A DNA stretch of 27,732 nucleotides from a virus, in IMG/VR virus record IMGVR_UViG_3300025400_000066, positions 1 through 27,732 of that record; one strand, given 5' to 3'. This document shows positions 97 through 24,362 of the stretch, in pieces (position 1 is the stretch's first letter; each line of letters begins with the position of its first letter). The translations under genes and the position numbers were made by a program. A model generated the notes under the pieces. It saw only the letters and a program-made list of their open reading frames with translations, searched no databases and had not been told where the DNA came from.

Positions 97-118
97 TTTT
101 GTGCATTAGTAGTTATAG
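97..118 (+). promoter_or_regulatory. Repeated promoter-like element, copy 1
   Basis: This copy carries the full core TGCATTAGTAGTTATAG preceded by TTTTG. It lies in the 42-bp gap between the upstream gene and the small gene at 124. A short inverted repeat, GCACA (83-87) with TGTGC (100-104), overlaps its left side. If G118 is +1, as in T7-type promoters, the leader to the ATG at 124 is only 6 nt. Four relatives occur at 3456, 7852, 16182 and 24341, all between genes. The promoter role is inferred. Confidence 0.6.
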
Positions 119-123
119 ATATT

Positions 124-372
124 ATGAATCCAATTAAAACGCCCCAAGAAATGATGTTCCAAGCCGCTGGCATTCCTGCCTTGGCTGGCGGCGGTTCGAC
201 TCAACAAAGCAAGTTGGATCGATTCATTGAATTTTTCAAACGGGAATATGGTCGGGATTTGGAGCCACATGAATTGGAACATGTGCGTATTCATTTTAAT
301 GAAAACAAAAATCCGGTAGCAATGGAGCATGAAATGATTGCTGCCGGTCATGTACCCCCAAGGTTTAAATAA
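124..372 (+). CDS. Small conserved-looking phage protein upstream of portal, function unknown
   Basis: This 82-residue soluble protein has a Gly/Ala-rich N-terminus (GIPALAGGGS) followed by a charged, probably helical region with FFKREYGRDLEPHELEH. I do not recognise a family. It lies between the putative terminase tail and the portal, 2 bp before the portal start, so it probably shares the portal's transcript. ATG 124 has no Shine-Dalgarno and sits 6 nt after the proposed +1 of the promoter-like element. It would therefore be leaderless or nearly so, unless ATG 151 or 154 is used instead. No membrane segment or signal peptide is visible. A small terminase-linked or head-completion role is possible from its place, but nothing in the sequence shows it. 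Confidence 0.7.
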   Translation: MNPIKTPQEMMFQAAGIPALAGGGSTQQSKLDRFIEFFKREYGRDLEPHELEHVRIHFNENKNPVAMEHEMIAAGHVPPRFK

Positions 373-374
373 AT

Positions 375-3218
375 ATGGCGCAACCAATTATTCCGCTTCA
401 ACAAGGTTTGAATCTTCCTGGCTTGGCAACCAACAACCATGTTGAGTTGGGCGAGGAACAAGAAGATTACGTTGAGGGTATCGAAAACGAATTGGGTTTA
501 GATTCCGATGACCAAGAAGACAGTTTAGACGAAGACGTTATTGAACTGGAAGATGGTTCAATTATTGTAAATTTTAAAAAGACGGATGGCCCATTAGAGA
601 AACCCGAGTTCTATGCCAACTTGGCAGAGACAATGGATGACGGGCTCCTTGCCTCGCTGGCCGACACTTATCTTGAATATATTGACATTGACCGAGAAGC
701 ACGTAAAGAGCGTGATAAACAGTACGAAGATGGACTGCGTCGTACAGGTCTTGGCAAAGACGCTCCTGGCGGTGCAACTTTTGATGGCGCTTCTAAGGTT
801 GTGCATCCTGTCATGGCAGAAGCTTGCGTGGACTTTGCTGCATCTAGCTCTAAAGAACTTCTTCCACCAGAAGGCATTGTTAAGTCGCAGATTAAAGGCA
901 TTGCGGATACTAACAGACAAGAAGTAGCTGAACATAAAGTCCAGTTTATGAACTGGCAACTCTCGGAGCAAATCCCTGAGTACCGCGATGAGATGGAACA
1001 ACTGCTGACCCAATTGCCATTGGGCGGTTCGCAATATTTGAAATGGCGTTTTGACGAAGAGCAAAAACGTCCGGTGTGTGAATGGATTCCGATTGACAAT
1101 GTTTTGCTGCCATATGCAGCAACAAATTTTTATACGGCCCAACGAGCAACTGAAGTCCAAGATATCACGGAAGACACTTATCTTCAACGGGTGGATCAAG
1201 GTATCTACCGTGATTTGGAGAATGCGAGTTTCTATGACAACATCAGCGTTGACGACCAAACACAGTCCCAAAAAGCAAACGACAAAATCGAAGGTCGTTC
1301 TATGCCGTCTGTTAACATCGATGGCATTCGACGAATCTTCGAAATTACATGCTACGAACGACTTGAAGACGACGAAGAAACAAAAGGTCGCCGCGCTCCT
1401 TACATCATTACGATTGACGAAGTAAGCAGCAAGATTCTGGCTATCCGCCGCAACTGGGCGTATGGTGATGAGAAGTTAACTAAACTGGATTGGTATGTCG
1501 AGTTTAAATTTATTCCTTGGCGCGGTGCGTATGCTATTGGGTTGCCTCACCTTATTGGTGGCCTTGCCGCCGCTCTTACTGGCGCTCTTCGGGCTTTGCT
1601 GGACGCTGCTCACATTAGCAATAGTCAGACTATGCTTAAGCTCAAGGGTGGACGCATTTCTGGACAAAGTGATCGAATTGAGCCTACCCAAGTTGTAGAA
1701 ATTGAAGGTTCACCTGGTGTTGACGACGTTCGTAAATTGGCGATGCCGTTGCCATTCAACCAACCGTCTAGCACTTTGTACAATTTACTTGGTTTCTTGA
1801 CAGATGCTGCCAAGGGAGTGGTCACCACAAGCGAAGAAAAAATCGGTGACATCAATGCAAACGCTCCGGTTGGCACGACTCAAGCTTTGATTGAGCAAGG
1901 AGCCAAGGTTTTTTCAAGCATTCACTCACGCTTGCACCGAGCACAGGCTAAATCGCTCAATATTCTTTCCCGTATCAATCACTGGTACTTGGAAGAAATG
2001 GACAATTTGTCCGGCACTGAGGTTGAAGTTCGCCATTTTGCTGACAACAACGATATTCGCCCTGTGTCGGACCCCAATATTTTCTCTGAAACTCAGAGAA
2101 TGGCCCAGACTCAAGCCATTTTGCAGATGGCAACCTCTGCGCCTCCAGGCATGTTTGACATTCGTGCTGTGTACAGCCGTATGTTAAACCAAATGAAAGT
2201 GCCAAACGTTGAGGAAATTTTGCCAAATCCTCAAGGTGTCAAGGAATCCAACCCAGCTTTGGAAAATGTGTCCATGACAATGGGCCGTCCAGCGGCTGCT
2301 TACCCAGATCAAGATCATTTGTCGCACATCAAAGTGCATATGGCCTACTACCAAGACCCAAATTACGGCAGCAGCCCCATGATTGGCCCAGTTTTTACGC
2401 CTTTGGCACTGGATCACATCAAGCAACATTTGACTTTGCACTATTTGCAATCGATGCGGGCCCAAATTGCCCAAGCAGCGGGCGGCAAAGACACCTTCAA
2501 ATTGCATGAAGAACGTGCTTTGGACATTGAAGCCCAACAAGCACTGGCCTTGGCAGCTCAATTGGTGTCGCAAGATTCGCAACAATTGTTCCAGCCCATC
2601 CAACCCGTGTTGCAAGACATGGTGCAGAAGGTCCAACAAATGCAGCAGTCGAAAGCACAACAAGCTGCGATGCAAGATCCGACAGCGCAAGCTTTGGTGC
2701 AGACCCAAACTGCTGAAACGCAACGTAAAGCACAAGAGTCACAAGCCAAACTGCAAGCCCAAATGCAACAAGACCAGCAAGAATACCAAATTCGGGTCGC
2801 TGAGTTGCAACAAAAGGTTGCTGACTTGCAAACCAAGTACCAAACACAGACAAGTATTGACAACCAACGTAATGCAACTGACATTGCGATGGCTAACATC
2901 AACAATTCTGCTCGGGAACGGATTGCAACCATCACAGCAGGCGCTCAAATGGACCAGCAACAGCTGCAATTGGAACACGAACAGGATATGTCGGCCACTC
3001 AGGCTATCGATGCGGCCAATGAGGACATTCGCCAGCATGGTTTAGCAATCCAGCAGCAAGCTTTCCAACAACAGGCCCAACAAGTTAACCAACAGGCCCA
3101 AGCACAACAGCAAGCTGCCCAACAACAGGCGCAACATCAAAACACAATGCAGCAACAGGCTGCTCAACAGGCCGCGCAACCGGCTCAACAACCCCAGCAA
3201 CCACCAGTAGGACAATAA
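375..3218 (+). CDS. Portal protein (P22-like head-to-tail connector)
   Basis: This 947-residue protein should form the dodecameric ring at one capsid vertex, through which DNA is packaged and ejected and to which the short tail attaches. An acidic N-terminus (about residues 25-65) leads into a core with the GGATFDGASKVVHPV region (about 132-146) and DFAASSSKELLPPEG, which I recognise from large podovirus portals. The last 250 or so residues are extremely Gln/Ala-rich and look coiled-coil, ending in a QQPQQPPVGQ tail. That is longer than P22 gp1 (725 residues) and may form an extended barrel reaching into the head. An AAGGT site (about 10 nt upstream) precedes ATG 375. The genes around it (scaffold, capsid, adaptors, nozzle) support the call. 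Confidence 0.9.
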   Translation: MAQPIIPLQQGLNLPGLATNNHVELGEEQEDYVEGIENELGLDSDDQEDSLDEDVIELEDGSIIVNFKKTDGPLEKPEFYANLAETMDDGLLASLADTYLEYIDIDREARKERDKQYEDGLRRTGLGKDAPGGATFDGASKVVHPVMAEACVDFAASSSKELLPPEGIVKSQIKGIADTNRQEVAEHKVQFMNWQLSEQIPEYRDEMEQLLTQLPLGGSQYLKWRFDEEQKRPVCEWIPIDNVLLPYAATNFYTAQRATEVQDITEDTYLQRVDQGIYRDLENASFYDNISVDDQTQSQKANDKIEGRSMPSVNIDGIRRIFEITCYERLEDDEETKGRRAPYIITIDEVSSKILAIRRNWAYGDEKLTKLDWYVEFKFIPWRGAYAIGLPHLIGGLAAALTGALRALLDAAHISNSQTMLKLKGGRISGQSDRIEPTQVVEIEGSPGVDDVRKLAMPLPFNQPSSTLYNLLGFLTDAAKGVVTTSEEKIGDINANAPVGTTQALIEQGAKVFSSIHSRLHRAQAKSLNILSRINHWYLEEMDNLSGTEVEVRHFADNNDIRPVSDPNIFSETQRMAQTQAILQMATSAPPGMFDIRAVYSRMLNQMKVPNVEEILPNPQGVKESNPALENVSMTMGRPAAAYPDQDHLSHIKVHMAYYQDPNYGSSPMIGPVFTPLALDHIKQHLTLHYLQSMRAQIAQAAGGKDTFKLHEERALDIEAQQALALAAQLVSQDSQQLFQPIQPVLQDMVQKVQQMQQSKAQQAAMQDPTAQALVQTQTAETQRKAQESQAKLQAQMQQDQQEYQIRVAELQQKVADLQTKYQTQTSIDNQRNATDIAMANINNSARERIATITAGAQMDQQQLQLEHEQDMSATQAIDAANEDIRQHGLAIQQQAFQQQAQQVNQQAQAQQQAAQQQAQHQNTMQQQAAQQAAQPAQQPQQPPVGQ

Positions 3219-3220
3219 AA

Positions 3221-3433
3221 ATGGACAAGAACCTCGGTTTTCGCAAATCGTATCAAATGACTGGCACCCCCGGCTATGCTGGCGGCCCCGATCAAAAGGT
3301 AGAACAAGGACCCAGCGGCTCACACCGCGATAATAACTGGAAAATTGGCGCAGCTCAAGCCAAATTGACCAAAAGCCAGAAAATTGGTCCTGATAAAAAC
3401 CTTAAAGAAGTTGGTCACGGCAACTTTTATTAA
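3221..3433 (+). CDS. Small basic Gly-rich protein, function unknown
   Basis: This 70-residue protein is rich in Gly, Lys and Asn (GTPGYAGGPDQK near the N-terminus, ending GHGNFY). It has no membrane segment and looks largely disordered. It starts 2 bp after the portal stop with AGGAC 7 nt upstream of ATG 3221, so translation is probably coupled to the portal. I do not recognise the family. Its place between portal and capsid genes suggests a minor virion or assembly factor, but that is inference from context. Confidence 0.7.
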   Translation: MDKNLGFRKSYQMTGTPGYAGGPDQKVEQGPSGSHRDNNWKIGAAQAKLTKSQKIGPDKNLKEVGHGNFY

Positions 3434-3438
3434 TATTT

Positions 3439-3453
3439 GGGGCATATTGCCCC
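3439..3453 (+). terminator. GC-rich hairpin without a T-run (weak terminator or processing site)
   Basis: A perfect 6-bp inverted repeat, GGGGCA and TGCCCC, with a TAT loop lies 5 bp after the preceding stop codon. It is followed by GATATTG rather than a run of T, so strong intrinsic termination is unlikely. It sits directly upstream of promoter-like copy 2 and resembles the hairpin at 8506, with the same TTGGGG...CCCCGAT outline. It could be an attenuator or an RNA-processing hairpin. Confidence 0.45.
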
Positions 3454-3455
3454 GA

Positions 3456-3477
3456 TATTGTGCATAAGTTGTAATAT
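3456..3477 (+). promoter_or_regulatory. Repeated promoter-like element, copy 2 (most divergent)
   Basis: This copy keeps TTGTGCAT exactly and matches copy 1 at 17 of 22 positions, counted by eye. It lies between the hairpin at 3439 and the gene at 3476. The aligned +1 position is T3477, inside the ATG of the next gene. So either that gene is leaderless, or its real start is elsewhere, or this copy is decayed. It heads the GroES/scaffold/capsid module. Confidence 0.45.
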
Positions 3478-3667
3478 GAAAGATTTAATTTCAGAATTAA
3501 TTCATCGACTTAAAAAAGTTGATAAAGAATTAGTCGAAGTTATTGCATCCGGTACTAATATCCATAGCTTTGATTCATACCAAAAGCTTGTAGGAAAAAG
3601 AGAGGGCGTATCCGAAGCCTTACTCCTCATTGATGAGTTACTTTCGGAGGATGACGAGGCTGAATAG
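3476..3667 (+). CDS. Small helical protein, function unknown
   Basis: From ATG 3476 this gene encodes 63 residues. The sequence is charged and looks alpha-helical throughout (KDLISELIHRLKKVDKELVE, then a C-terminal LLLIDELLSEDDEAE), with no membrane segment. An in-frame TTG at 3437 would lengthen it, but that reads through the GC-rich hairpin, so ATG 3476 is preferred. No Shine-Dalgarno precedes the ATG. It lies 18 bp upstream of the GroES-like gene. I do not recognise it. The size and charge pattern would fit a small assembly factor, but function is unknown. Confidence 0.65.
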   Translation: MKDLISELIHRLKKVDKELVEVIASGTNIHSFDSYQKLVGKREGVSEALLLIDELLSEDDEAE

Positions 3668-3685
3668 CCTAGAAAGGATTGCCGA

Positions 3686-4126
3686 ATGGCAATTGATTAT
3701 AACAAGAAGGATGATCCTGACACACGGTCTGAGTTGGAATGTTTTCCGATTGTAGATCCAGGTGTTGATATCCTTGGTGACCGAGTATTGGTGCAATTGC
3801 GCCGAGAAAAGACAGCCAGTAAGGGTGGAATTATCTTGGTTGATGAAACCAAGCAAACGTTGCGGTTTAACGAAACTGTAGCCAAAGTGATTGGGATTGG
3901 CCCGCTGGCCTATAAGAGCCCCGACACGCTGGAACCTTGGCCTGAAGGCCCTTGGTGTCAAGTTGGCGATCTGGTTCGTACCATTAAATATGGTGGTGAC
4001 CGTTTTGTTGTGAATCCTGATGATGGTGGCGCTCCTGTGGTGTTTATTACACTTCAAGCCCGCGAGATTATCTCCAAGATTCGCTCGTTTGATTTTGCCC
4101 AGCGCATGAAAGCGTTTGTTGATTAA
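3686..4126 (+). CDS. Phage GroES-like co-chaperonin
   Basis: This 146-residue protein has the GroES beta-barrel signature: GDRVLVQL (residues 31-38), a mobile-loop region with GGIIL (47-51), KVIGIGP, then a late CQVGDLVRTIKYGGDRF strand pair. In GroES the IVL tripeptide of the mobile loop contacts GroEL; here I49-I50-L51 take its place. Between KVIGIGP and CQVGDLV lies a Trp/Pro-rich stretch (EPWPEGPW) where cellular GroES has its roof hairpin, a likely phage adaptation. T4 gp31 and RB49 CocO are known phage GroES proteins that let host GroEL fold the capsid protein, and the position upstream of scaffold and capsid genes fits that role. AAAGGA precedes ATG 3686 by 7 nt. About 30 N-terminal residues are extra compared with GroES. 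Confidence 0.88.
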   Translation: MAIDYNKKDDPDTRSELECFPIVDPGVDILGDRVLVQLRREKTASKGGIILVDETKQTLRFNETVAKVIGIGPLAYKSPDTLEPWPEGPWCQVGDLVRTIKYGGDRFVVNPDDGGAPVVFITLQAREIISKIRSFDFAQRMKAFVD

Positions 4127-4143
4127 TTAACTTTGGAAAAAGT

Positions 4144-5115
4144 ATGTCAGAAAAAGATGAAAAGATCTTTCCTGTAAAGGAAAAAGAAGACGGTTCTGCT
4201 GTTGCTGCTATTGAGGCTGAAGAAGAGCTTGAATTAGAAGAAAAAGCCGAAGAAGATGCCGAGGAAGAAGAGCATCATGAAGAAGAGGCCCACGCAGACG
4301 AAGAATCGGATGACGATAGTGGTGATGAGCGTGACAAAATCCGCGAAGCCCGTCGTAAAGAACGAAATCTGAAAAAAGAGCTGGCCCGCCAGCGCGAAAT
4401 TTCAGCAAAGAATAAAATTGCGGCGCTAGAGCGACGTAATGAAGAGTTGGCTAGGCGAGTAGCAGCGGTGGAGAACACTGCAGCATCTTACCAGTTTGCT
4501 CAAGTGGATAAGGCGATTGAAGACGAGGCAACTCGTGTTGAATATGCCAAAATGAAACTGTTAGAGGCCTCGCAACAGAATAATGCAGCTGGCCAAGTTC
4601 AATACTTGGAACAATTGCAAGATGCGAAGACTCGTTTGAGCCAAGTCCAAGCGTTGAAAAAACAACAATTGGAAGAAGCTAAAAGGCCCAAACAAAATGT
4701 GCCTAACCCTGTGTCTGATGAGGTACAGCGTAACGCACAAACTTGGCTAAACAAAAATAAGTGGTATGACCCTGGTGCAAAGGATACTGATTCCAAGATC
4801 GCCAAGGTTATTGACCAAGAATTAGCAGCAGATGGATGGGATCCGTCTGACTCTGAGTATTGGGATGAGTTAGATAATCGTTTGAAGGCACGTTTGCCGC
4901 ATCGTTATGCAGGTAAAACGGGACAACAGCGTAATGCTGGCCCACAGGCTAATGGCAGAACTGCCAGCCCTAGTGTGAAGTCAGCAAACACCATCACGTT
5001 GAGTCGTGATCGTGTTCAGGCAATCAAAGATGCCGGTGCTTGGGATAATCCAGCAGCACGGGCTCGAATGATTAAAGCCTACGCCAAATTTGACCGTGAA
5101 AACCGTAACGCATAA
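4144..5115 (+). CDS. Capsid scaffolding protein
   Basis: This 323-residue protein is strongly acidic at the N-terminus (Glu/Asp/Ala-rich, about residues 20-65). A long charged coiled-coil segment follows (about 65-180, e.g. LKKELARQREISAKNKIAALERR), then a C-terminal folded part with TWLNKNKWYDPGAKDTDSK and a basic end. This composition and the position directly before the head genes are typical of internal scaffolds that assemble with capsid protein and leave before or during DNA packaging. No protease motif is seen. GGAAAAAGT precedes ATG 4144, 17 bp after the GroES stop. Confidence 0.85.
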   Translation: MSEKDEKIFPVKEKEDGSAVAAIEAEEELELEEKAEEDAEEEEHHEEEAHADEESDDDSGDERDKIREARRKERNLKKELARQREISAKNKIAALERRNEELARRVAAVENTAASYQFAQVDKAIEDEATRVEYAKMKLLEASQQNNAAGQVQYLEQLQDAKTRLSQVQALKKQQLEEAKRPKQNVPNPVSDEVQRNAQTWLNKNKWYDPGAKDTDSKIAKVIDQELAADGWDPSDSEYWDELDNRLKARLPHRYAGKTGQQRNAGPQANGRTASPSVKSANTITLSRDRVQAIKDAGAWDNPAARARMIKAYAKFDRENRNA

Positions 5116-5126
5116 GGAGAAATAAA

Positions 5127-5678
5127 ATGTCTAATTCAAGAATTACACGAGATGTGGATGATCGTTTGATTGCACGAGCGCATGAAGCCCGTGAACGTAC
5201 CGAAAATCCTGAAGAGTTATCTAAACGGGAACGCCTCGAAGCGTTCCGAGATAAATGGCAAAACTCTGCTTTGCCAGACATTCCAAAGGGATTAATCCCC
5301 GGAATGCACTTGTGCTGGTTGTCAACAACCAACACATATGACAGTATCGACAAACGCATGGCGTTGGGTTATGAACCAGTGAAAGCCGCAGAACTCGGAG
5401 TTGGCTTTGAATCGCTAGGTAAGATGAGCTCGGGCAAGTTTGAAGGCTGTGTTAGCTGTAACGAAATGGTTTTATTTAAATTACCAGAAGACATCTATCA
5501 AGAAGTGATGAAAATGTTCCACTTGGAAGATCCGCTTCAACACCAACGTAGCATTATGGACCAAGTCCGTGGCGCTGCAGAGGCTGGAAAAGGCGGGCGT
5601 TCAATTCTTGAAGGCGGTGTTCTGGAAATGGAAAAGGAAACCAAACGAGCGAACGGTATGAACGTTCGTTTCGATTAA
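5127..5678 (+). CDS. Conserved phage head-region protein, function unknown
   Basis: This 183-residue soluble protein has a charged helical N-terminus (RARERTENPEELSKRERLEA-like region) and then a compact middle with PGMHLCWLSTTNTYDSIDKR and LGYEPVKAAELG. I recall this middle motif from uncharacterised phage proteins encoded between scaffold and capsid genes. Two cysteines near residues 110-113 (CVSC) are noted, without a clear second metal-binding pair. It has an excellent ribosome binding site (AAGGAGA) and starts 11 bp after the scaffold stop. The conserved neighbourhood suggests a role in head assembly or a minor head protein, but the function is unknown. Confidence 0.8.
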   Translation: MSNSRITRDVDDRLIARAHEARERTENPEELSKRERLEAFRDKWQNSALPDIPKGLIPGMHLCWLSTTNTYDSIDKRMALGYEPVKAAELGVGFESLGKMSSGKFEGCVSCNEMVLFKLPEDIYQEVMKMFHLEDPLQHQRSIMDQVRGAAEAGKGGRSILEGGVLEMEKETKRANGMNVRFD

Positions 5679-5706
5679 CAAACTTCAAAAATAACAAAGG
5701 AAAAAT

Positions 5707-6378
5707 ATGTCTACAGTATTTCAACCCTTTGGTCTGAAGCCAGTGTACCATCCAAGTGGTTTGGATCGCGCTACCGCATTTGCAGGTACTAATACCTACA
5801 ATGCTGGCGTTACCTATACCGCCCCTTACTCGCTGTCTTCTGGCCAATCTTTCTTTCAATTCCAACCCGTGGCTATTACGACCACTGGTCAATTGACTAT
5901 CGCCGCACAAAACGCTTCGGGCTCTGGTTCCGGTAAAGTGTTTGGTGTGTTTGATGGCGTCGAGTACACCAACTCTGATGGCCGTCGTTCCGTGGCTAAG
6001 TATGCTTCCAAAACCACCTTGGACGCTTCTACCAACATCTTGTTCTGGATCTTCTCTGATCCCGCATTGGTGTATGAAGCTCAAGTTAACGGTTCTGCTA
6101 CTACTGCAGCTATTGGTACTGAGTACAACTTTGACACCACCACTGGTTCTACTGTGACCGATGGCTATTCCATCGGTAACGGCGGCGCTGGCTTCTCGAC
6201 CACTGCTTTGTTGGCTACCTCTGTCGGTACTGGCAATCAAGGTCAAGTTCGCGTGGTTGGCTTGGGTCGTGAAGTGGCTTATCCCGGCGGTTATAACAAC
6301 GCTTGGGGTGACGCTTACACTATCGTGCAAGTCCAAATCTGCAACAACCAATTCGCTGCCGCTTCGGTATCGGTTTAA
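5707..6378 (+). CDS. Probable head decoration or minor structural protein
   Basis: This 223-residue protein is rich in Gly, Thr, Ser and aromatic residues. It looks all-beta, with no charged coiled coil and no membrane segment. It opens with FQPFGLKPVYHPSGLDRA and carries GSGSGKVFGVFDGVEYT near residue 77. Its Cys- and Lys-poor composition and its place directly upstream of the major capsid gene fit a virion surface or decoration protein. AAAGGA lies just upstream of ATG 5707, and codon use matches the highly expressed capsid gene. A role as a head vertex or joining protein is also possible. The call rests on context and composition. Confidence 0.7.
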   Translation: MSTVFQPFGLKPVYHPSGLDRATAFAGTNTYNAGVTYTAPYSLSSGQSFFQFQPVAITTTGQLTIAAQNASGSGSGKVFGVFDGVEYTNSDGRRSVAKYASKTTLDASTNILFWIFSDPALVYEAQVNGSATTAAIGTEYNFDTTTGSTVTDGYSIGNGGAGFSTTALLATSVGTGNQGQVRVVGLGREVAYPGGYNNAWGDAYTIVQVQICNNQFAAASVSV

Positions 6379-6402
6379 TTAATTAACGAAAGGAGATAAG
6401 CT

Positions 6403-7320
6403 ATGGCAACCCCAATGCGTAGTACGGACTTTCGTGCGGTAGTCGAACCGATTATCAACGAAGTCTTTGACGGTGTTTACGAGCAACGTGACGATGAATG
6501 GAAAGGATTTGTTGAGCAAATCCAAGGTATTCCCCGTAACTATCACGAAGAAGTGATGTTGTACGGTATGAATGCAGCTCCCGCAATGCCCGACGGCACT
6601 CCAGTGTCGTACGATCAAGGCGGTACGCTGTATATCACCCGTTTCATCTACCAAATCTATGGCTTGGCATATGCCTTGACCAAAGTTTTGATGGAAGACG
6701 GCGACCATATCCGTATCGGTAGCACCTTCGCTAAACACTTGGCTCAATCCATGATTGAAACCAAGGAAACCTTGTGCGCCAACTTGTTGAACTTTGCGTT
6801 CACCAGCGGCTACATCGGCGGCGACGGCGTTACTTTGATCAATAGCGCTCACCCCATCGCTAACGGCGGTTCTTACTCGAACCAATTGTCTACTGCAGCT
6901 TCTTTGAGCCAAACTTCTGTTGAACAGTTGTTGATTCAAATCCGCAGCGCTGTTGACAATAACGGCAAGCGTATCCGTCTGAAAGCTGAACAACTCGTGG
7001 TTCCTCCCGCTTTGGAATTCCAATCGGAAGTTATCTTGAAGTCTGTTCTGCGTTCCGGCACTGCTGATAACGATCTGAACCCCATCAAGTCCACCGGCAT
7101 GTTGCCAAAGGGCGCTCATGTGGTTACTCGTTTGAGCTCTTCTAAAGCATGGTGGATCCAGACCGACGCTGAAAACGGCTTGATGCTCGTTATGCGCCGT
7201 CCTATGGAAAAATCGATGGAAGGCGATTTCGAAACTGATTCGATGCGCTATAAAGCCACCGAACGTTATGCGACGGGTTGGCACGATGCGAGAAATATTT
7301 ATGGCACTGCAGGTCTGTAA
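6403..7320 (+). CDS. Major capsid protein (HK97-fold type)
   Basis: This 305-residue protein would form the icosahedral shell. Features seen include an N-terminal helix region (RAVVEPIINEVFDGVYEQRDD), the aromatic strand GGTLYITRFIYQIYG, a central NSAHPIANGGSYSNQ motif (about residues 146-160), a LVVPPALEFQSEVILKSVLRSG segment typical of P-domain/spine regions, and a C-terminal MRYKATERYATGWHDARN. The HPxxNGGxxSN and LxVPP patterns resemble the Mu gpT-like and related HK97-fold heads. It has the strongest ribosome binding site of the region (AAAGGAGAT) and is followed by the strongest terminator, as expected for the most abundant virion protein. No N-terminal protease-cleaved delta domain is obvious, consistent with a separate scaffold. 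Confidence 0.9.
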   Translation: MATPMRSTDFRAVVEPIINEVFDGVYEQRDDEWKGFVEQIQGIPRNYHEEVMLYGMNAAPAMPDGTPVSYDQGGTLYITRFIYQIYGLAYALTKVLMEDGDHIRIGSTFAKHLAQSMIETKETLCANLLNFAFTSGYIGGDGVTLINSAHPIANGGSYSNQLSTAASLSQTSVEQLLIQIRSAVDNNGKRIRLKAEQLVVPPALEFQSEVILKSVLRSGTADNDLNPIKSTGMLPKGAHVVTRLSSSKAWWIQTDAENGLMLVMRRPMEKSMEGDFETDSMRYKATERYATGWHDARNIYGTAGL

Positions 7321-7344
7321 TCTAACCGATTAATCTGCTACAAT

Positions 7345-7377
7345 GGCTCCCAACTCAAAAGGTTGGGAGCCTTTTTT
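7345..7377 (+). terminator. Strong rho-independent terminator after the capsid gene
   Basis: A perfect 10-bp stem (GGCTCCCAAC at 7345-7354 with GTTGGGAGCC at 7362-7371), a 7-nt loop and six T residues make a textbook intrinsic terminator. It lies 24 bp after the capsid stop. The right arm holds GGGAG, 8 nt before the HNH endonuclease ATG at 7378, so the same stem could mask that gene's ribosome binding site. Confidence 0.95.
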
Positions 7378-7845
7378 ATGCCAAAAGACAAAGAAAACCA
7401 AAAACGCATAGCTCGTGAGTGGTACGAACGCAATAAAGAAATTACCAAGCAACGTGCCCGTGAATGGGAGTTAGCTAATCCGGAAGCCACAAAACGTAAA
7501 AAAACAAAATGGCGCGAAGAAAATCGAGAACAGCATAATGCTATAAACCGCAACTATTGGGCTAAAAACTTAGATAAAAAAGCTGCATTAGAAGCAAAAC
7601 GCCGCGCAGCCAAGCTGCAACGCACACCATGCTGGCTAACCAGCGAAGGGTTGTGGTTGATAGAAGAATACTATCATTTAGCGCAAAGACGCACTGAACT
7701 GCTTGGGTTTCCTTGGCACGTTGACCACATCATTCCGCTACAGGGTCGTAATGTATCTGGTTTGCATGTGCCGGAAAACTTGCAAGTGATACCAGGCGCA
7801 GAGAATATAAAGAAGTCAAACAAGTATGATATTTGGGGCATTTAA
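7378..7845 (+). CDS. Freestanding HNH homing endonuclease
   Basis: From ATG 7378 this gene encodes 155 residues. The N-terminal two thirds are a highly charged helical region (REWYERNKEITKQRAREW, KRKKTKWREENRE), probably for DNA binding. The C-terminal HNH domain has HVDHIIPL (His114-His117), GLHVPENLQVI (His130, Asn134) and ENIKKSNK (Asn143, Asn148), which fit a beta-beta-alpha-Me metal and catalytic site. Such genes copy themselves into related phages that lack them. It lies alone between the capsid terminator and promoter-like copy 3. An in-frame TTG at 7363 lies inside the terminator stem, so ATG 7378 is preferred. Translation may be restrained by the terminator hairpin. It looks more A-rich than the capsid gene, which suggests later arrival. 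Confidence 0.9.
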   Translation: MPKDKENQKRIAREWYERNKEITKQRAREWELANPEATKRKKTKWREENREQHNAINRNYWAKNLDKKAALEAKRRAAKLQRTPCWLTSEGLWLIEEYYHLAQRRTELLGFPWHVDHIIPLQGRNVSGLHVPENLQVIPGAENIKKSNKYDIWGI

Positions 7846-7851
7846 TGCGTA

Positions 7852-7873
7852 ATTTCTGCATTAGTAGTTATAG
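7852..7873 (+). promoter_or_regulatory. Repeated promoter-like element, copy 3
   Basis: The full core TGCATTAGTAGTTATAG is present, matching copy 1 at 20 of 22 positions, and is followed by GGAAG. It begins 7 bp after the HNH stop codon. A small dyad, AATGC (7844-7848) with GCATT (7858-7862), overlaps the HNH stop and the core. Proposed +1 is G7873, giving a 91-nt leader to the decoration-like gene at 7964. It heads the long fibre and lysis module, which the capsid terminator otherwise cuts off from upstream transcription. Confidence 0.65.
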
Positions 7874-7963
7874 GAAGATTTTGCCCCCAACAGACTACTG
7901 AACTTCCCAGTAGACGATCTAGCGACTGAGTGGGGCTATAAACTCTAGATAGGAATAAAACCC
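7873..7963 (+). promoter_or_regulatory. Structured 5' leader with possible pseudoknot
   Basis: This leader begins GGAAG (7873-7877), which can pair with CTTCC (7903-7907). A second hairpin, CTACTG (7895-7900) with CAGTAG (7908-7913), encloses that CTTCC in its 7-nt loop, so both pairings together would make a pseudoknot. Further on come AAACTCTAGA and a TAGGAAT ribosome binding site before ATG 7964. The leader after copy 4 has the same outline (5' hairpin, then ACTCTAGA, then the ribosome binding site). Structure is judged by eye only. Confidence 0.45.
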
Positions 7964-15773: not shown

Positions 15774-16173
15774 TACGATTATTGGGTTCGAGGGGTTTAG
15801 GACCCGAGCCTATAAGGATACCAAGGGGCTTTGGACGATTGGTGTTGGGCATTTGATTAAACCCAATGAGCAGCATCTTATTACGACAGAGCTTACAAAG
15901 ATAGGTGTTGACAGTCTATTGCGCCAAGACTTGGCAGAATGCCAACGCTGCATCGATAAAATGGTCCGAGCGCCCATTAATCAAAACCAGTTTGATGCGC
16001 TGTGTAGTTTGTGTTTTAATATTGGCACAGAGCATTTTACAGAATCTTCGGTATTGCGGCATCTTAACCAGCTGAATTATGCCCAAGCTGCTAATGATTT
16101 CCTGCTTTGGAACAAACCACCAGAATTAATAGAGCGCAGAAAAAAGGAAAAAGCGCTGTTTGAAAGGGCCTGA
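15751..16173 (+). CDS. GH24 endolysin (T4/lambdoid-type lysozyme)
   Basis: This 140-residue muramidase cuts the glycan strands of peptidoglycan. The GH24 catalytic triad spacing E-x8-D-x5-T is present as Glu14, Asp23 and Thr29 within GFEGFRTRAYKDTKGLWTIG, followed by GVGH. Other family marks are FDALCSLCFNIG and FLLWNKP. There is no signal peptide or SAR helix, so release depends on a holin. The start is GTG 15751, overlapping the Rz end by 23 bp. The order holin, spanins, endolysin differs from lambda (holin, endolysin, spanins). The stop codon lies in the loop of the following terminator. Confidence 0.92.
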   Translation: MIQQSTLDTIIGFEGFRTRAYKDTKGLWTIGVGHLIKPNEQHLITTELTKIGVDSLLRQDLAECQRCIDKMVRAPINQNQFDALCSLCFNIGTEHFTESSVLRHLNQLNYAQAANDFLLWNKPPELIERRKKEKALFERA

Positions 16174-16187
16174 AAAGGTCCTTTTTT
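16163..16187 (+). terminator. Rho-independent terminator after the lysis genes
   Basis: AAAGGGCC (16163-16170) pairs with GGTCCTTT (16177-16184), one G-T wobble, around a TGAAAA loop that contains the endolysin stop codon. Six T residues (16182-16187) follow. These same T residues form the left end of promoter-like copy 4, so termination and re-initiation are packed into one module. Confidence 0.85.
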
Positions 16188-16203
16188 GCATTAGTAGTTA
16201 TAG
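16182..16203 (+). promoter_or_regulatory. Repeated promoter-like element, copy 4
   Basis: This copy matches copy 1 at 21 of 22 positions and continues TATAGGGAAT, the closest of the five to the T7-family TATAGGGA start. It directly follows a strong terminator and precedes the Lys-rich gene by about 50 nt. This context gives the best support for a promoter role, since downstream genes otherwise have no visible source of transcription. Confidence 0.7.
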
Positions 16204-18140: not shown

Positions 18141-18141
18141 G

Positions 18142-18318
18142 ATGCCTTACGTTAGCAAAGCCCAACAAGGTGCTATGTATGCCGCTGCTGAAGGCAAAAG
18201 CAACATTGGCATTCCTAAAAAAGTAGGCAAGGAGTTTGTCAAGGCTGGTCCTAAAAAGGCCAACTTGCCAAGCCGAGTAACCAACAAGCCTACTCGAACA
18301 TCTGGTCGAGGACGGTAA
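18142..18318 (+). CDS. Small basic protein of a common phage type, function unknown
   Basis: ATG 18142 encodes 58 residues, [18 protein letters not shown], then Lys- and Arg-rich sequence ending TRTSGRGR. Short proteins that open with PxVSKAQxGxMxAA are common in phages, and I know no confirmed function. An AAGG site lies upstream inside the preceding gene's end. An in-frame ATG 18118 overlaps the previous gene and is less likely. The strong positive charge suggests nucleic acid or acidic-protein contact. Confidence 0.7.
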
Positions 18319-18321
18319 TTC

Positions 18322-19386
18322 GTGGCTTATTCCAACACTACAAACCAAACCAAAATCACGGTAGGGCAACTCATTGAGTATGCCTTCCGTGCTGCAGGTA
18401 AAACTGCGGAAGAACAAACACCTGAATATATCAACGCAGCCAAACAGGCTCTGTACTATATTCTGATGAATTTGTCCAACCGTGGTGTTAATCTTTGGAT
18501 GTTAAAGAACCAATTGATTGGTTTGATCCAAGACCAAAAGATTGTAGAGTTGGATGCCAGCACGATTGATGTTCGTGAGGCCAACTGGTCTTACAATATC
18601 TATCCTCAAATCAGTGAGGCATTGCCGGTTGACAATCCCAACTCACCGGCACTGTTTACTCAAAATTTGAATAACCATGCCACATCGACTGTTGGCGAAA
18701 ACTGGTTTGGCGCACAGTACCAAACTGCACAGAGCATTGTAAACGTTGGGTTCAATGCCTATGCACCAGGCGGCTCGGCCACTTACAACTTTGTGTTGGA
18801 AGCCAGCGCAGACGGTATTACATGGACCACGCTTGAAACTTTCCCCTCTACCACACTGGCAGACGGAACATGGGCCTATTACCCCATTAACACCACTCAG
18901 GCGCATTTAAATTACCGCTTGAGGGAGACAGTAGCCCCAACGTTTTCTTTGCGTCAAATCACGTTATCTTACGTTCAGCAAGTCATTCCCTTGGCACGAC
19001 TGAACCGTGACGATTACTGGAACTTGCCAAACAAAGATTTTCCCAGCGCTCGTTCGTTGCAGTACTGGTTTGATCGCCAGATTACACCTCAAATGTGGTT
19101 GTGGCCAATCCCCAATAACGACTTCCAAATGTTGCAGTTGGTGATTGAAAGCCAGATCATGGATGTGGGTTCGATGACCAACCAATTGGAACTTCCCAAT
19201 CGTTGGATCCCTGCTGTTCAAGCATGGTTGAGCCATGAAATGTCTTTGCAATTGCCCAATGTGGATCTGGCCCGAATCACATATTTGGAAGGCCAGTATA
19301 TGAAATGGTTGCAACAAGCTGAAGACGAAGAGCGCGATAAGAGCCCAATCTATTTCCAACCCGTGATAAAATATTATACATCCTGA
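18322..19386 (+). CDS. Tail adaptor (P22 gp4-like) with inserted sugar-binding-like domain
   Basis: This 354-residue protein starts at GTG 18322 with GAGGA 9 nt upstream. The N-terminus (QLIEYAFRAAGKTAEEQTPEYINAA) and C-terminus (YWFDRQITPQMWLWPIPNN, LPNRWIPAVQAWLSHEMSLQLP, WLQQAEDEERDKSP) resemble gp4-type tail accessory proteins that bind under the portal. Between them, about residues 105-215, lies a beta-rich segment with NFVLEASADGITWTTLETF and HLNYRLRETVAPTFSLRQITL, the layout of a discoidin (F5/8 type C)-like module that often binds carbohydrate. P22 gp4 itself is only 166 residues, so the insertion explains the extra length. It works with the second adaptor and the nozzle downstream. 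Confidence 0.75.
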   Translation: MAYSNTTNQTKITVGQLIEYAFRAAGKTAEEQTPEYINAAKQALYYILMNLSNRGVNLWMLKNQLIGLIQDQKIVELDASTIDVREANWSYNIYPQISEALPVDNPNSPALFTQNLNNHATSTVGENWFGAQYQTAQSIVNVGFNAYAPGGSATYNFVLEASADGITWTTLETFPSTTLADGTWAYYPINTTQAHLNYRLRETVAPTFSLRQITLSYVQQVIPLARLNRDDYWNLPNKDFPSARSLQYWFDRQITPQMWLWPIPNNDFQMLQLVIESQIMDVGSMTNQLELPNRWIPAVQAWLSHEMSLQLPNVDLARITYLEGQYMKWLQQAEDEERDKSPIYFQPVIKYYTS

Positions 19387-19393
19387 TAATATT
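19370..19393 (+). promoter_or_regulatory. A/T hairpin across the adaptor stop, before the GIY-YIG gene
   Basis: AATATTAT (19370-19377) and ATAATATT (19386-19393) form a perfect 8-bp inverted repeat around an 8-nt loop that holds most of the TGA stop codon. It lies 9 bp before the GIY-YIG ATG. It is weak because it is all A-T, but hairpins next to homing endonuclease starts control translation in T4 (known for I-TevI and related genes), so it may limit expression. Confidence 0.45.
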
Positions 19394-19402
19394 GTTAAAC
19401 AT

Positions 19403-20065
19403 ATGGATACCGCTTCTGTTTACTGGATACGCCATAAAGACCACACAGACATGTTTAGTGAGGGGTATATTGGGGTGTCTAGTAATACTGAAAACCGTTT
19501 TAAAAGACATAGTAAGTACTCAGACAATCCGCATCTAAAAGCAGCAATAGAAAAATACGGCTGGAAAAATTTAATAAAGCAAATTTTATTAATTAGTTAT
19601 TCGAATTATTGCTACGCTGTAGAAAATAAATTACGGCCTATAAGACAAATTGGTTGGAATATTGCAGAAGGGGGAGCAAAACCCCCGGTTACGCAACCTC
19701 GCGGAGATGACTATGTAAGTCCTCTAAAAGGCAAATCCAAGGATACTCCTTGGATGTTTGGCCGCAAACCTTGGAACGAGGGTAAAGTAGGATATTGGTC
19801 CGAAGAACAAAAAGCTAAATTTATTGCGGGAGTTTCTAAACCGCATACTGAAGAACACATTAAAAAACGGCAAATAACAAGAGAAGCCACTCGTATTGCA
19901 AAAAGGCAAATAAAAGCTGTCCAAGTAAACAATACAAAATATAAAAGCGCAAAAGAAGCTTCAATTATCTTAAATATTCCGGAAGCAACAATTAAATACT
20001 GGTGCTACGGCAAAGGGAAACCCGGAAAAAAATATGATTATATTACAGAATGTAGGTGGGCTTAA
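19403..20065 (+). CDS. GIY-YIG homing endonuclease with NUMOD domains
   Basis: This 220-residue enzyme has an N-terminal GIY-YIG nuclease: VYW (6-8), GYIG (21-24), Arg32 in the first helix and Glu74 in YAVENKLRP. These match the catalytic Arg27 and Glu75 of I-TevI. A NUMOD3-like part follows (FGRKPWNEGK). The C-terminal NUMOD1-like DNA-binding helix-turn-helix has QVNNTKYKSAKEASIILNIP, then KYWCYGKGKPGKKYDY. It looks more A/T-rich than its neighbours, has no visible Shine-Dalgarno and interrupts the otherwise typical pair of adaptor genes, all signs of a mobile insertion. Its stop abuts the next gene's ATG. It is not inside an intron as far as I can see. Confidence 0.92.
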   Translation: MDTASVYWIRHKDHTDMFSEGYIGVSSNTENRFKRHSKYSDNPHLKAAIEKYGWKNLIKQILLISYSNYCYAVENKLRPIRQIGWNIAEGGAKPPVTQPRGDDYVSPLKGKSKDTPWMFGRKPWNEGKVGYWSEEQKAKFIAGVSKPHTEEHIKKRQITREATRIAKRQIKAVQVNNTKYKSAKEASIILNIPEATIKYWCYGKGKPGKKYDYITECRWA

Positions 20066-20680
20066 ATGAGCGTTGTGATGACTTTTGATTCGCTTGTAGC
20101 AAACATTATCGATTACAGCGAACGGGACGATGCTGATTTTGTTGCAGCAATCCCTAACTTGATTGCGCTGGCAGAATCGTCGATTGCTGCCGAACTGAAG
20201 ACTTATCTGCAACTGACTGTTGTAGAAACCGCCCTCGCCACCAATCAAGCCATTCTCAATAAGCCAGCTCGGTGGCGTAAGACGGTCAGCATGAAGGTGA
20301 ATGGCGAGCCCATTACGCTGCGTAGCCAAGACTATGTGGCGATGTACCAAGCCGAATCTTCAAATGGTAAGCCCCAGTTCTATGCTGAGTATGATTACTC
20401 AAACTGGAACTTTGCCCCTATTCCGGACACTTCGTATCCTGTAGAAATTATTTACTACAGCGAGATACAACCCTTGGATTCGGAAAATCAACAAAACTTG
20501 TTTACTGCCGTAGCACCCCAAGCCATGTTATATGGCACATTATTGCAAGCTCAAGGCTTTTTGAAAGCACTGGATAAATTACCAGTGTGGAAACAGTATT
20601 ATACCGATGCACTTGCCGCACTGAAGAAAGAAGACAATACTCGTCGTGTGGACCGGAACACTTCTGTACAGGAACCCTAA
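20066..20680 (+). CDS. Second head-tail adaptor protein
   Basis: This 204-residue protein looks mostly helical at both ends with a beta region between: SLVANIIDYSERDDADFVAAIPNLIALAE, WRKTVSMKVNGEPITLRSQDYV, YPVEIIYYSEIQPLDSENQQN, then AMLYGTLLQAQGFLK. I recall this order from podovirus adaptor proteins (of SU10 or T7 gp11 type) that sit between portal and nozzle. ATG 20066 directly follows the GIY-YIG stop. The ribosome binding site GTAGGTGGG is inside the endonuclease gene's end, so the insertion appears to have kept or supplied a good translation start. The start codon context suggests high expression. Confidence 0.75.
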   Translation: MSVVMTFDSLVANIIDYSERDDADFVAAIPNLIALAESSIAAELKTYLQLTVVETALATNQAILNKPARWRKTVSMKVNGEPITLRSQDYVAMYQAESSNGKPQFYAEYDYSNWNFAPIPDTSYPVEIIYYSEIQPLDSENQQNLFTAVAPQAMLYGTLLQAQGFLKALDKLPVWKQYYTDALAALKKEDNTRRVDRNTSVQEP

Positions 20681-20683
20681 TCT

Positions 20684-21952
20684 ATGACAACCCCAACCTA
20701 TGTTTCCCCTTTTACTGGAACGGTTGTTACCCCGACAGACGTTTCCTTTTCTACACTATCATTTTCTGGCGATACCCAACTGTATTGGCCCGCTGTTGTT
20801 AATGCTGTAGAAGCACCAGCCAGCCGAATTATCAACGCAACTGCAACAGCAACCAACAAAACAATTTTGTTGCCTGATGCCACTCAAGGCACGTTGGGCG
20901 CAGACATTTTAATCTGCAACGTCGGTTCTTACGCTTTCTTTGTTACCAATGCAGCTTCGGGCCAATCGGTTTCTATTGCGCCTGGTATTAGCCTTTACTT
21001 CTACTTGACCAACAATTCTACGGTTGGTGGCATTTGGAATAACGTAACATTTGGTGCCGGTACATCATCGGCCAGCGCAGCGGCCTTGCAAGGTGCTGGT
21101 CTTACTACCTTGGCTGGCCAGCTTGCAACAACTCAAAACATTGTTGATGTTACTTCATCACCAACAATCAATGATGCCAGTCGTGCAGCAACTTTTGTGT
21201 GGGGCGGCGGTGCAGGCACATTTACCTTGCCTTTGCCAACCAGCATCACAACGGGCTGGTACATTGGTTTCCGTAATTCTGGAACCGGCGCTTTAAGTCT
21301 TACAGCTCAGTCACCCGCCACTATCAATGGTGTAAGTGCTGTGGTTGCCAACCCCGGCGATTCTGGTTTTATCTTTTATGATGTAAGTACACTGTCTTTT
21401 ATTACAGTGGGTTTAGCGTCTACCGCCAATGTAACTTTTACTTCAGGCACTTATGACGTTGACTCGATTTCGGGCAACTCTTTTAGTCTTCAAGCATCGG
21501 CTCCCATCATTCAAACGTATGTGGCTCAGTCTGGCACTCGGACAACAAGCCTGACTGTTACGTTGCCAGCTATTACTCAATTCTACATTCTGTCTAACAA
21601 CACAGGACAGTCTGGGTACAATATCATATTCCAATTAGCAGGAAGCAGTGGCGCAACCATTACGTTGACTACTGGCAGTATTGTGACCGTGTTGAGCAAT
21701 GGTACTAATTTGTACATTTTGAACGCCAGCAGTTCCAGTAACTACAGAGCTTCAAATGGTACTGCAGCGTTGCCTGCGTATTCTTTTAATGCGGACACAC
21801 ACTCTGGTATGTATTTGGACGGTACAAGTATTTTAGGCCTTTCTGCAAATTCAACTGAAATTATTCGTATAGATAATTCTAATACCGCACAACCTTTGGT
21901 TACGGTAGCGGCCCAGTTGAATGCTCAATTGATCACTGGCGGTTCATTCTAA
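20684..21952 (+). CDS. Fibre-like structural protein
   Basis: This 422-residue protein is Thr/Ser/Gly-rich and beta-rich throughout, with no membrane segment. Near the C-terminus it has LPAYSFNADTHSGMYLDGTSILGLSANSTE, the P-x-x-S-F-x-x-D-x-x-x-G-M-Y pattern common in phage fibres, and it ends LITGGSF like the fibres ending at 10622 and 11987. It lies between the second adaptor and the nozzle, so it may be a fibre or spike attached near the tail tip or at the adaptor ring. AGGAA precedes ATG 20684, and its stop overlaps the next start by 1 bp (TAATG). Confidence 0.75.
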   Translation: MTTPTYVSPFTGTVVTPTDVSFSTLSFSGDTQLYWPAVVNAVEAPASRIINATATATNKTILLPDATQGTLGADILICNVGSYAFFVTNAASGQSVSIAPGISLYFYLTNNSTVGGIWNNVTFGAGTSSASAAALQGAGLTTLAGQLATTQNIVDVTSSPTINDASRAATFVWGGGAGTFTLPLPTSITTGWYIGFRNSGTGALSLTAQSPATINGVSAVVANPGDSGFIFYDVSTLSFITVGLASTANVTFTSGTYDVDSISGNSFSLQASAPIIQTYVAQSGTRTTSLTVTLPAITQFYILSNNTGQSGYNIIFQLAGSSGATITLTTGSIVTVLSNGTNLYILNASSSSNYRASNGTAALPAYSFNADTHSGMYLDGTSILGLSANSTEIIRIDNSNTAQPLVTVAAQLNAQLITGGSF

Positions 21953-24075
21953 TGCCAGATTTAAATAACCAAGAACAATTTAATTCCGTTTATACTTTGG
22001 CTATTCAGCCAGGTATAAAGCGGGACGGCACTGTTTTTGAAACGGAAGAGTTCACTGACGGTGTTTGGTGCAGGTTCCAACGTGGCGTTGCCAAAAAAAT
22101 GGGCGGCTATCGGGAAACCTTTAGTAGTTTTACTGGCGTGTATCGTGGCATGTTTGCCCAGCCTTATAACGGCGTTAACTATGTTTTTGCTGGTAACGCA
22201 AATGGCTTAGATGTTTTTGGTACGGGCTCTTCTTATGGGTCCGGCGCTGGTCCTTTTACTGGCACAATGTTGAACGGCACAGTTTCGGCAACAATTACAA
22301 CTAATACTACCACAACGATTACTGTTACGGGCAATGCTGTAAGTGCGTTTCCAAACGGCACTCAAATTATTTTTAGTCAGTCTGGAACGCCCACAGTATA
22401 CACTGTTTCTGGAACCCCGACGTATACATCACCAAGCACCGTAATAACTTTTACGCCAGCTTTGGGTTCTGGTGTTACAGTAACAGAGGTATGGAAAAAA
22501 GGCACTGTATTTTCTTCTGATACCAGAAACGATTGGCAGTTTGATGCGATTTTTAGTCCGCTTGGCGGCAATCTTCAATTACTGGCCCACCCGGGGCTTA
22601 ACCTAAATAGCATTGACAATGCTGTAAAGTCCCAAGTTTTAGTGGGCAATGTTGTTCCCAGTGCGGGGGATAGTTGGTCTTTTAGCGGCTTATCTGATAG
22701 CGCTGGTCCCAACCCTACGTTCCAACCAATTTCGGTTGATGGTGGTGTTTGTGTTCTTTACCCTTTTATTTTTGTTTATGGGTCGAATGGTTTTATTGCT
22801 AATAATAATGTCAGTACTACTTACGACCTTCAGAACTTCTACGATTGGAACGGCCCCCTTGCCAACCAAACCAACGTTGCAAGCTCCAAAATAGTTAAAG
22901 GTATGCCCATGAGGGGCGGTACCAATTCGCCCTCTGGTTTGTTTTGGGCCACCGATAGTTTGATTCGTGTATCGTTCAATGCTGCAGCAGCACCCAACTA
23001 TTGGTCTTACGATATTATCAGTAGCCAAATTTCTATCATGTCGTCTAACGCCGTGGCTGAAATGGACGGTGTTTATTTCTGGATGGGCGTTGACCGATTT
23101 TACTTGTACAATGGTAATGTGCAAGTTTTACCAAACGATAAAAACGTCAACTATCTTTTTGACAATATCAACTATCAACAACGTCAAAAAGTTTGGGCTA
23201 CCAAAGTTCCTCGCTTCAATGAGATCTGGTTCTTTTACCCCCGTGGTAATGTAACAGAATGCAACGACGCAATTATTTATAATGTCAAAGATAAGTTATG
23301 GTACGACGCCGGTATGGCAGTTGGTTCACAACGCTCTTGTGGTTATACAACAGAAGTGTTTCCGACCCCAATTTGGGCGGATTGGAATTATGCTCCCGTA
23401 TTTAGTTCGCCTAAATACACGATTGCTACACCAACAGGGCAACCAGCTGCGGGAACAAATCAATTTTATGTTGCTGGTGACTTGACGCCTGAGTTTAGTC
23501 CTGGCAGCTACATTTCTTTGGGTAAAACAAACATTGACCCAACCTATTTGATTACTGCCAGTAAAAACGTATACAATACAACAATCGGCGCACCTGGCGT
23601 CACGTTGGTAACGGTGTCCCAAGATTTTCCAGTTACGGTTGCCACGGGTTCTCCTGTGTATTTGGCAACTGGTGGCTACCGTATTTGGCAACATGAGTTT
23701 GGTCAAAATGCCGTGTCGTTTACCGGTGAGCAGGCTGTATACTCCAGCATTACAACCAGCGACATTGGCTGGCTTACTGGAACACCAAGCGGTCAGGCTT
23801 TGCAAGGGGCCAATCGTCGTATGCACTTGCGTCGGTTTGAGCCAAACTTCTTGCAAACCGGCACTATGACAATGACCATTCTTGGCCGCAAGTTTGCCGG
23901 TGGTACTGACATGGAAGAATCTGGCCCATATTATTTTGATCAAAACACTGGTAAGATCGATCTTCGTGTAGAATATCGTTTGATTAGGTTAAAATTTGAA
24001 TCTAATGAACTTGATGGAAACTTTGAGATGGGTCGTAATATTATAACTTGTGAGTATGGCGATGAGCGCCCCTAA
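21952..24075 (+). CDS. Tail nozzle protein (P22 gp10 / T7 gp12-like)
   Basis: This 707-residue protein would form the hexameric nozzle closing the short tail. It starts with the IQPGIKRDGTVFETEEFTDGVWCRFQRG segment typical of gp10-like packaged-DNA stabilisation proteins. It continues as beta-propeller-like repeats (GGYRETFSSFTGVYRGMFAQ, YNGVNYVFAGNANGLDVF). The central part has DGVYFWMGVDRFYLYNGNVQVLPND and NEIWFFYPRGNVTECNDAIIYNVKDKLWYD, and the C-terminus has RVEYRLIRLKFESN. A Thr-rich insertion (about residues 100-180) may be an extra surface domain. The neighbours (two adaptors, then ejection-type genes) are as expected for a podovirus tail. Confidence 0.88.
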   Translation: MPDLNNQEQFNSVYTLAIQPGIKRDGTVFETEEFTDGVWCRFQRGVAKKMGGYRETFSSFTGVYRGMFAQPYNGVNYVFAGNANGLDVFGTGSSYGSGAGPFTGTMLNGTVSATITTNTTTTITVTGNAVSAFPNGTQIIFSQSGTPTVYTVSGTPTYTSPSTVITFTPALGSGVTVTEVWKKGTVFSSDTRNDWQFDAIFSPLGGNLQLLAHPGLNLNSIDNAVKSQVLVGNVVPSAGDSWSFSGLSDSAGPNPTFQPISVDGGVCVLYPFIFVYGSNGFIANNNVSTTYDLQNFYDWNGPLANQTNVASSKIVKGMPMRGGTNSPSGLFWATDSLIRVSFNAAAAPNYWSYDIISSQISIMSSNAVAEMDGVYFWMGVDRFYLYNGNVQVLPNDKNVNYLFDNINYQQRQKVWATKVPRFNEIWFFYPRGNVTECNDAIIYNVKDKLWYDAGMAVGSQRSCGYTTEVFPTPIWADWNYAPVFSSPKYTIATPTGQPAAGTNQFYVAGDLTPEFSPGSYISLGKTNIDPTYLITASKNVYNTTIGAPGVTLVTVSQDFPVTVATGSPVYLATGGYRIWQHEFGQNAVSFTGEQAVYSSITTSDIGWLTGTPSGQALQGANRRMHLRRFEPNFLQTGTMTMTILGRKFAGGTDMEESGPYYFDQNTGKIDLRVEYRLIRLKFESNELDGNFEMGRNIITCEYGDERP

Positions 24076-24322
24076 GACACAACCAGTTTTCCCCTTTCTT
24101 CCTGACTACATGAGTTGGGAAGATTGGAATGGCAACTTTGTCATTTACTATGGCCAAGAGACATTGCCTGTTGAGTCCGAAGAAAATTGGCAAAGTGCTG
24201 CTGCTCAAATTATGTCTTTGCAAACTTTTTCTGTCTACCCAGTTGCTGACCCGCAGACCTTTGACAACTGGCAAGACTGGGCTCGTGCCTTGACTTCTGC
24301 TATCAACGGTAAGAGCCATTAA
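24062..24322 (+). CDS. Small conserved protein after the nozzle, function unknown
   Basis: From ATG 24062 this gene encodes 86 residues, opening MSAPKTQPVFPFLPDYMSWEDWNGN. It is acidic and Trp-rich (WEDW, NWQSAA, DNWQDWARA). I recall the PVFPFxPDYMSWEDWNGN motif from aquatic phage genomes, always without known function. Starts at GTG 24050 and ATG 24056 are in frame and cannot be excluded. All three overlap the nozzle gene's end, so it is translationally coupled. A minor tail part or a nozzle plug is possible, but that is inference. Confidence 0.72.
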   Translation: MSAPKTQPVFPFLPDYMSWEDWNGNFVIYYGQETLPVESEENWQSAAAQIMSLQTFSVYPVADPQTFDNWQDWARALTSAINGKSH

Positions 24323-24331
24323 TAGGGCCAA

Positions 24332-24351
24332 AATGCACAATTTTGTGCATT
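24332..24351 (+). repeat. Perfect 9-bp dyad overlapping promoter-like copy 5
   Basis: AATGCACAA (24332-24340) and TTGTGCATT (24343-24351) are exact inverted repeats around TT. The right arm is the left part of promoter-like copy 5. It could be a DNA operator-like dyad or an RNA hairpin in read-through transcripts. Shorter versions overlap copies 1 and 3. Confidence 0.6.
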
Positions 24352-24362
24352 AGTAGATAAAG
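24341..24362 (+). promoter_or_regulatory. Repeated promoter-like element, copy 5
   Basis: TTTTGTGCATTAGTAG is kept exactly, and the end is ATAAAG rather than TTATAG (20 of 22 matches to copy 1). TAAAG at the start site is also seen in the T3 promoter. It lies in the 58-bp gap after the tail module. Proposed +1 is G24362, followed by AAAAGGT and a GTG start at 24381, a normal short leader. Confidence 0.6.

Follow-up and report, generated by a model that had tools for sequence, protein, structure and literature searches.

The repeated intergenic elements of this freshwater phage are most likely promoters, judging from their sequence, and hundreds of related phages appear to carry slightly differing, matched versions of the promoter and of the sigma factor that would read it. 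We analyzed a stretch of 27,732 bases (the window), an incomplete virus record that forms part of a tailed phage genome. It encodes portal, GroES (Cpn10), capsid, fibre, lysis and tail genes, and its large last gene occupies a place corresponding to that of the ejection genes in relatives. The explanation that we favor, and consider probable, is that these promoters are read by the host multisubunit RNA polymerase together with a phage-encoded sigma factor in two pieces, the second being a protein here called R4, in a middle-to-late cascade. The sequence evidence comprises the two-part element, its placement, the occurrence of both genes in the same genomes, a single promoter letter per genome that tracks sigma residues and ATG codons at the predicted start.

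The initial annotation of the window described a 22-bp element at positions 97, 3456, 7852, 16182 and 24341. These five copies are real, and all are on the coding strand at the heads of functional blocks with none on the minus strand. Their proposed position between genes holds for four copies, while copy 2 overlaps the ATG (3476) of a 63-codon gene. The core is exact at 102, 7857 and 16187, the copy at 24346 has two mismatches and the copy at 3461 diverges more (TGCATAAGTTGTAATAT). A scan of the window for the core with up to three mismatches returns four matches against 0.05 expected, and none on the minus strand. Each of the five copies also has GGGC exactly 17 bases 5′ of TGCAT, and the pattern GGGC-N17-TGCATWAGTWG finds exactly the five sites with no mismatches (0.02 expected; Table 1). 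The element is really about 43 bp long, its upstream GGGC half having been missed. A sigma-70 reading had been dismissed because TTATAG, taken as the −10, left a spacing of only 8 bp. The −10-like hexamer is instead CATTAG, at 17 bp from GGGCAC, and the objection falls because the GGGC half is now included. TATAG, formerly read as the end of a T7-type promoter, corresponds to the start-site region.

Table 1. Predicted promoters in the window (positions count from its first base).
Promoter	Position	Strand	−35 half	Core or −10	Predicted start	Downstream genes	Homologous sites in relatives
1	81..118	+	GGGCAC 81-86	TG 102-103, −10 CATTAG 104-109	A117	ORF 124-372 and portal 375-3218	before portal/ORF182
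2	3440..3478	+	GGGC 3440-3443	core from 3461	A3476	63-codon gene and GroES/capsid	17
3	7836..7873	+	GGGC 7836-7839	core 7857-7873	A7872	fibre genes from 7964	13
4	16166..16203	+	GGGC 16166-16169	core 16187-16203	A16202	tail block from 16254	11
5	24325..24362	+	GGGC 24325-24328	core 24346-24362	A24361	24381-24773 and large gene 24766-27732	before ejection-region genes

By portal sequence, the closest named phages are MW202545, Caulobacter phage RW and its kin, the roseophages CRP-901 and CRP-902 and the pelagiphages HTVC023P and HTVC027P. Hundreds of IMG/VR contigs are far closer to the window than these; one collection yielded 449 relatives by portal and about 260 by sigma. Four of the genomes (G001, G024, G026 and G027) have matching ends and are complete or near-complete. 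When the relatives were aligned, a further conserved block, (A/G)GGGC(G), emerged at a constant distance upstream of the core. A scan of related phages, as the initial annotation had suggested, was performed with a bipartite weight matrix trained on 34 contigs and gave 133 matches; reversed sequences, scanned as a control with an unchanged threshold, gave 2. Read over hundreds of contigs from related freshwater phages, the complete element is GGGCGG-N17-[C/T]ATTA[G/A/T] with TG directly before the −10. The position of GGGCGG 17 bp from the −10 indicates a bacterial −35/−10 layout and not a T7-type promoter. In its long form the consensus is tAGGGCGgAWW, about nine unconserved bases, TTTTT, TG[C/T]ATTA[R/T]TA, three to four loose bases and TA[G/T]G, and at least 120 stretches in the viral collection contain an exact 38-bp version.

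Complete and near-complete genomes mostly have 6–11 sites each, nearly all intergenic. In the relatives the sites point in both directions, in the sense of the next gene, and precede equivalent genes across genomes: the terminase operon, portal, GroES/capsid, post-capsid fibre, tail, ejection and one replication-arm operon. The five sites of the window belong to five of these homologous groups. Neither −35-bearing sites nor genes for the phage sigma and R4 were found in MW202545, Caulobacter phage RW, CRP-901 and HTVC023P (the first 50 kb of the last two); HTVC023P has two weak core-like matches in that region.

The initial annotation predicted a single-subunit RNA polymerase or a dedicated sigma factor elsewhere in the genome, and it is the sigma factor that was found in relatives. 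They encode a protein of about 190 residues with sigma regions 1.2, 2 and 3, as identified by Pfam, PHROG, PDB and fold searches. Pfam matches (E up to 1) cover regions 2 and 3 in 14/14 members and region 1.2 in 13/14, the PDB search returns SigA/RpoD (E 3e-36), and the fold search returns sigmaS/SigA folds. The polypeptide stops just past region 3, where region 4 would come. Three weak Pfam region 4 matches among these proteins (E up to 1) probably fall on the region 3 helix-turn-helix, as a second PDB alignment suggests. Matches to the phage sigma include 13 Bacillus phage records at below 60% identity. One relative (G021), 99.0% identical to positions 1-6700 of the window, encodes the sigma factor about 8.4 kb to the left of the window start. 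In the genomes checked the sigma gene precedes the first sites on its own strand, with the exception of one odd site in G026, and therefore fits an early gene.

R4 is a separate protein of about 100 residues, known from related contigs, the replication arm of the window species being outside the sequence examined. It is present in 10/10 contigs longer than 55 kb, of which nine have the sigma gene and the tenth ends near its expected place. R4 weakly matches Sigma70_r4_2: Pfam region 4 matches were obtained for 8/12 members, the best (E 0.007) below the cut-off. Its predicted model has pLDDT mostly near 90 for residues 40-100, and the nearest folds are region 4 domains with weak E-values (0.2 and up). 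A search against PDB sequences returned nothing convincing, and tblastn at E up to 1 gave no match in 50,697 phage records.

Sites fall into two classes according to the −35. GGGC is present at 67/72 structural and packaging sites but at only 2/15 sites before R4, primase, SSB and the DUF2800 nuclease (Fisher 8e-10, a value that overstates the difference because homologous sites are not independent), and the two exceptions lie within terminator-like hairpins. The class devoid of a −35 has a better conserved TATA after the core. One replication-arm operon has a full −35, so the division does not simply set structural against replication genes. This distribution suggests that sigma alone would serve middle genes and sigma with R4 late genes, R4 itself being a middle gene. 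We infer binding between the two proteins, or between them and the polymerase, as well as which promoter half each would read and when. The phage would supply its own sigma to the host enzyme in two pieces. The first, comprising regions 1.2, 2 and 3 together with the beginning of the finger, would read TG-[C/T]ATTA[G/A/T] and open the DNA; R4 would read the −35 GGGCGG. Sigma would be produced early from a host-type promoter and act first at promoters mostly lacking a −35, driving R4, primase, SSB and nuclease genes. Fresh R4 would then enable the −35-bearing promoters of the terminase, portal, capsid, fibre, tail and ejection genes.

Alternatively, sigma alone reads the core, R4 is not a sigma piece and another activator or a host protein binds GGGCGG. 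The case from sequence for assigning R4 to region 4 is weak, and all genomes above 55 kb have R4, making a presence/absence comparison impossible. However, the folds nearest to R4 are region 4 domains, GGGCGG and the −10 are separated by the customary 17 bp, and in three genomes the R4 gene follows a promoter that lacks the −35, as would be expected of a late switch. We consider this alternative unlikely.

The end of the core points to a likely start of transcription. With the T of TGCATTA as core position 0, an ATG lies exactly at positions 15-17 in 35/110 sites, a count inflated by homologous copies, while any other offset accounts for at most 7. ORFs of at least 45 codons are opened by 32 of the 35 ATGs; they include the 63-codon gene before GroES (promoter 2, ATG 3476-3478), a terminase-operon gene, R4, a primase and others. 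Since the downstream genes differ, the coincidence is not one inherited case. No Shine-Dalgarno was seen before these ATGs in the copies inspected by eye. The simplest reading is that the transcript begins at the A of the ATG and is translated without a leader, implying leaderless mRNAs for several genes. The predicted start is accordingly placed at the A of TATAG/TATATG. Counted back from this A, TG is at −15/−14, the usual position in an extended −10, and the −10 hexamer is CATTAR or lies one base downstream, the register being uncertain by one base.

Position 7 of the core is G, A or T depending on the genome: 156 of 160 sites from 33 genomes match the majority letter of their own genome (at most 107 in shuffles), and the position is uniform in 29 genomes compared with 3 expected. 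This letter appears to track residues of the sigma factor that adjoin the −10 DNA, in region 2.3. Residue 96 of the phage sigma, which an alignment by eye places opposite E. coli T429, is T in 58/64 G-genomes (S in 6), S in 7/8 A-genomes and G or A in 12/12 T-genomes; S96 is shared by A-genomes and some G-genomes. Residue 90 also tracks the letter. In sigma-70, T429 is described as the fulcrum of the bend between the flipped −11A and −7T, and the −7 pocket is reported to be unable to accept a purine (PMC4496690). Only if position 7 corresponds to −7 would these phages use purines disallowed by that pocket. On a tree built without regions 2.3-2.4, the letter needs six changes, with one T lineage apart from the others. 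For a phylogenetic sign test, two independent pairs rest on firm branches; they mostly changed as expected and never the opposite way. With only two firm independent switches the test is supportive, not decisive. A fuller account, in which the −10 piece works solo at middle promoters, separately timed R4 converts the enzyme to its late form, starts are leaderless and the G/A/T shifts are linked to region 2.3, seems to us evenly poised between right and wrong.

The initial annotation was right to see, at the heads of late blocks, a set of promoters specific to the phage; its T7-like identity did not survive. A T7-type promoter would call for a phage polymerase of the single-subunit type that has diverged beyond detection, and such an enzyme would also suit the 16 bp ahead of a start at G, the TATAG end and a single letter variant in each genome. 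But PF00940, which detects the T7 control at E 1e-109, matched in 0/10 relatives, the −35 half is conserved at fixed spacing instead of forming one contiguous element, and a sigma factor is present whose region 2.3 residues track the promoter letter. Nor did any polymerase family match the large ejection-type genes searched, and a virion-borne polymerase among them was rejected. We therefore regard a T7-type promoter as highly improbable. A sigma-54 promoter was also rejected: the GG and GC of sigma-54 promoters are about 11–12 bp apart, whereas here GGGC to TGC is about 20 bp. A terminator or RNA-processing signal between operons is, like a T7-type promoter, highly improbable. A GC hairpin lies directly upstream at 25/117 sites, often with a T run, and copy 4 resembles a genuine terminator; yet GGGC is kept at most sites though the hairpin is absent, the core downstream of the hairpin is conserved base by base, start ATGs overlap the core end and the genome-wide letter follows the sigma factor.

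At some sites the −35 GGGC forms the 5′ arm of the hairpin, as in promoter 4, and terminator and promoter may therefore be fused. At 16163-16187 of the window, and at the sites before the DUF2800 gene in three relatives (G003, G013 and G026), a terminator-like hairpin and its T run reach right up to the promoter core.

There is precedent for sigma factors encoded by phages, for split sigmas and, in 7-11, for two classes of promoter served by a phage sigma. Late transcription in T4 uses gp55 and gp33 with the gp45 clamp, termed a split sigma, in which gp33 does not recognize DNA sequence (PMC2988020). The arrangement proposed here is similar in having a small phage sigma devoid of region 4, a separate partner of about 100 residues, the host core polymerase and late genes as targets. 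Unlike the −10-only late promoters of T4, those described here conserve a −35, and unlike gp55 the sigma factor also has regions 1.2 and 3. SPO1 gp34 and gp33 and their relatives act at late promoters of the form CGTTAGA-N17-19-GATATT (PMC3601020), with both −35 and −10 and two phage proteins, as we propose here. The promoter sequences differ, and the SPO1 group has a different host group, Firmicutes. Bacillus subtilis SigO-RsoA is a two-subunit sigma, sigma2-sigma3 plus sigma4 (PMC10141391). Its domains are divided over two polypeptides in the way proposed here, but it is a bacterial stress system and not a phage switch. We know of no separate timing of its two parts. The phiEco32 and 7-11 phage sigmas use short (middle) and long (late) motifs (PMC4331800), again two promoter classes by gene module for a phage-encoded sigma; those classes differ by TG and TATA around TGATGT, ours by the presence of a −35. 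In the open-licence literature searched we found no report of a split sigma in such phages, nor of the combination of a −35 apparently tied to a separate region-4-like protein, leaderless starts within the promoter and genome-specific −10 letters that follow sigma residues. The proposed system would account for late gene control in a large group of uncultured freshwater phages, provide a natural experiment in the joint change of sigma factors and promoters, and offer a testable case of region 4 as a separately timed subunit in a late switch.

Portal matches in GTDB genomes are confined to two contigs (L402 and L403) of one uncultured betaproteobacterial MAG at about 70% identity, a faint host hint that is insufficient to name the host; the host search with R4 in GTDB genomes returned no match. 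In the window, the GroES (Cpn10) co-chaperonin gene (3686-4126) adjoins the capsid genes and is kept in relatives. A homing-endonuclease-like gene (19403-20065; phrog_314, E 1.5e-16, with a weak GIY-YIG match) lies between two tail genes. Between a capsid gene and promoter 3, a 160-residue ORF (7363-7845) gave no Pfam match and looks HNH endonuclease-like by eye (WHVDHIIPLQG...N). Proline-rich 12-base repeats occupy 27289-27392. At the extreme end of the record (27423-27732), a 124-base stretch recurs 186 bases further at 99% identity, and the record may end in a repeat that the assembler was unable to cross.
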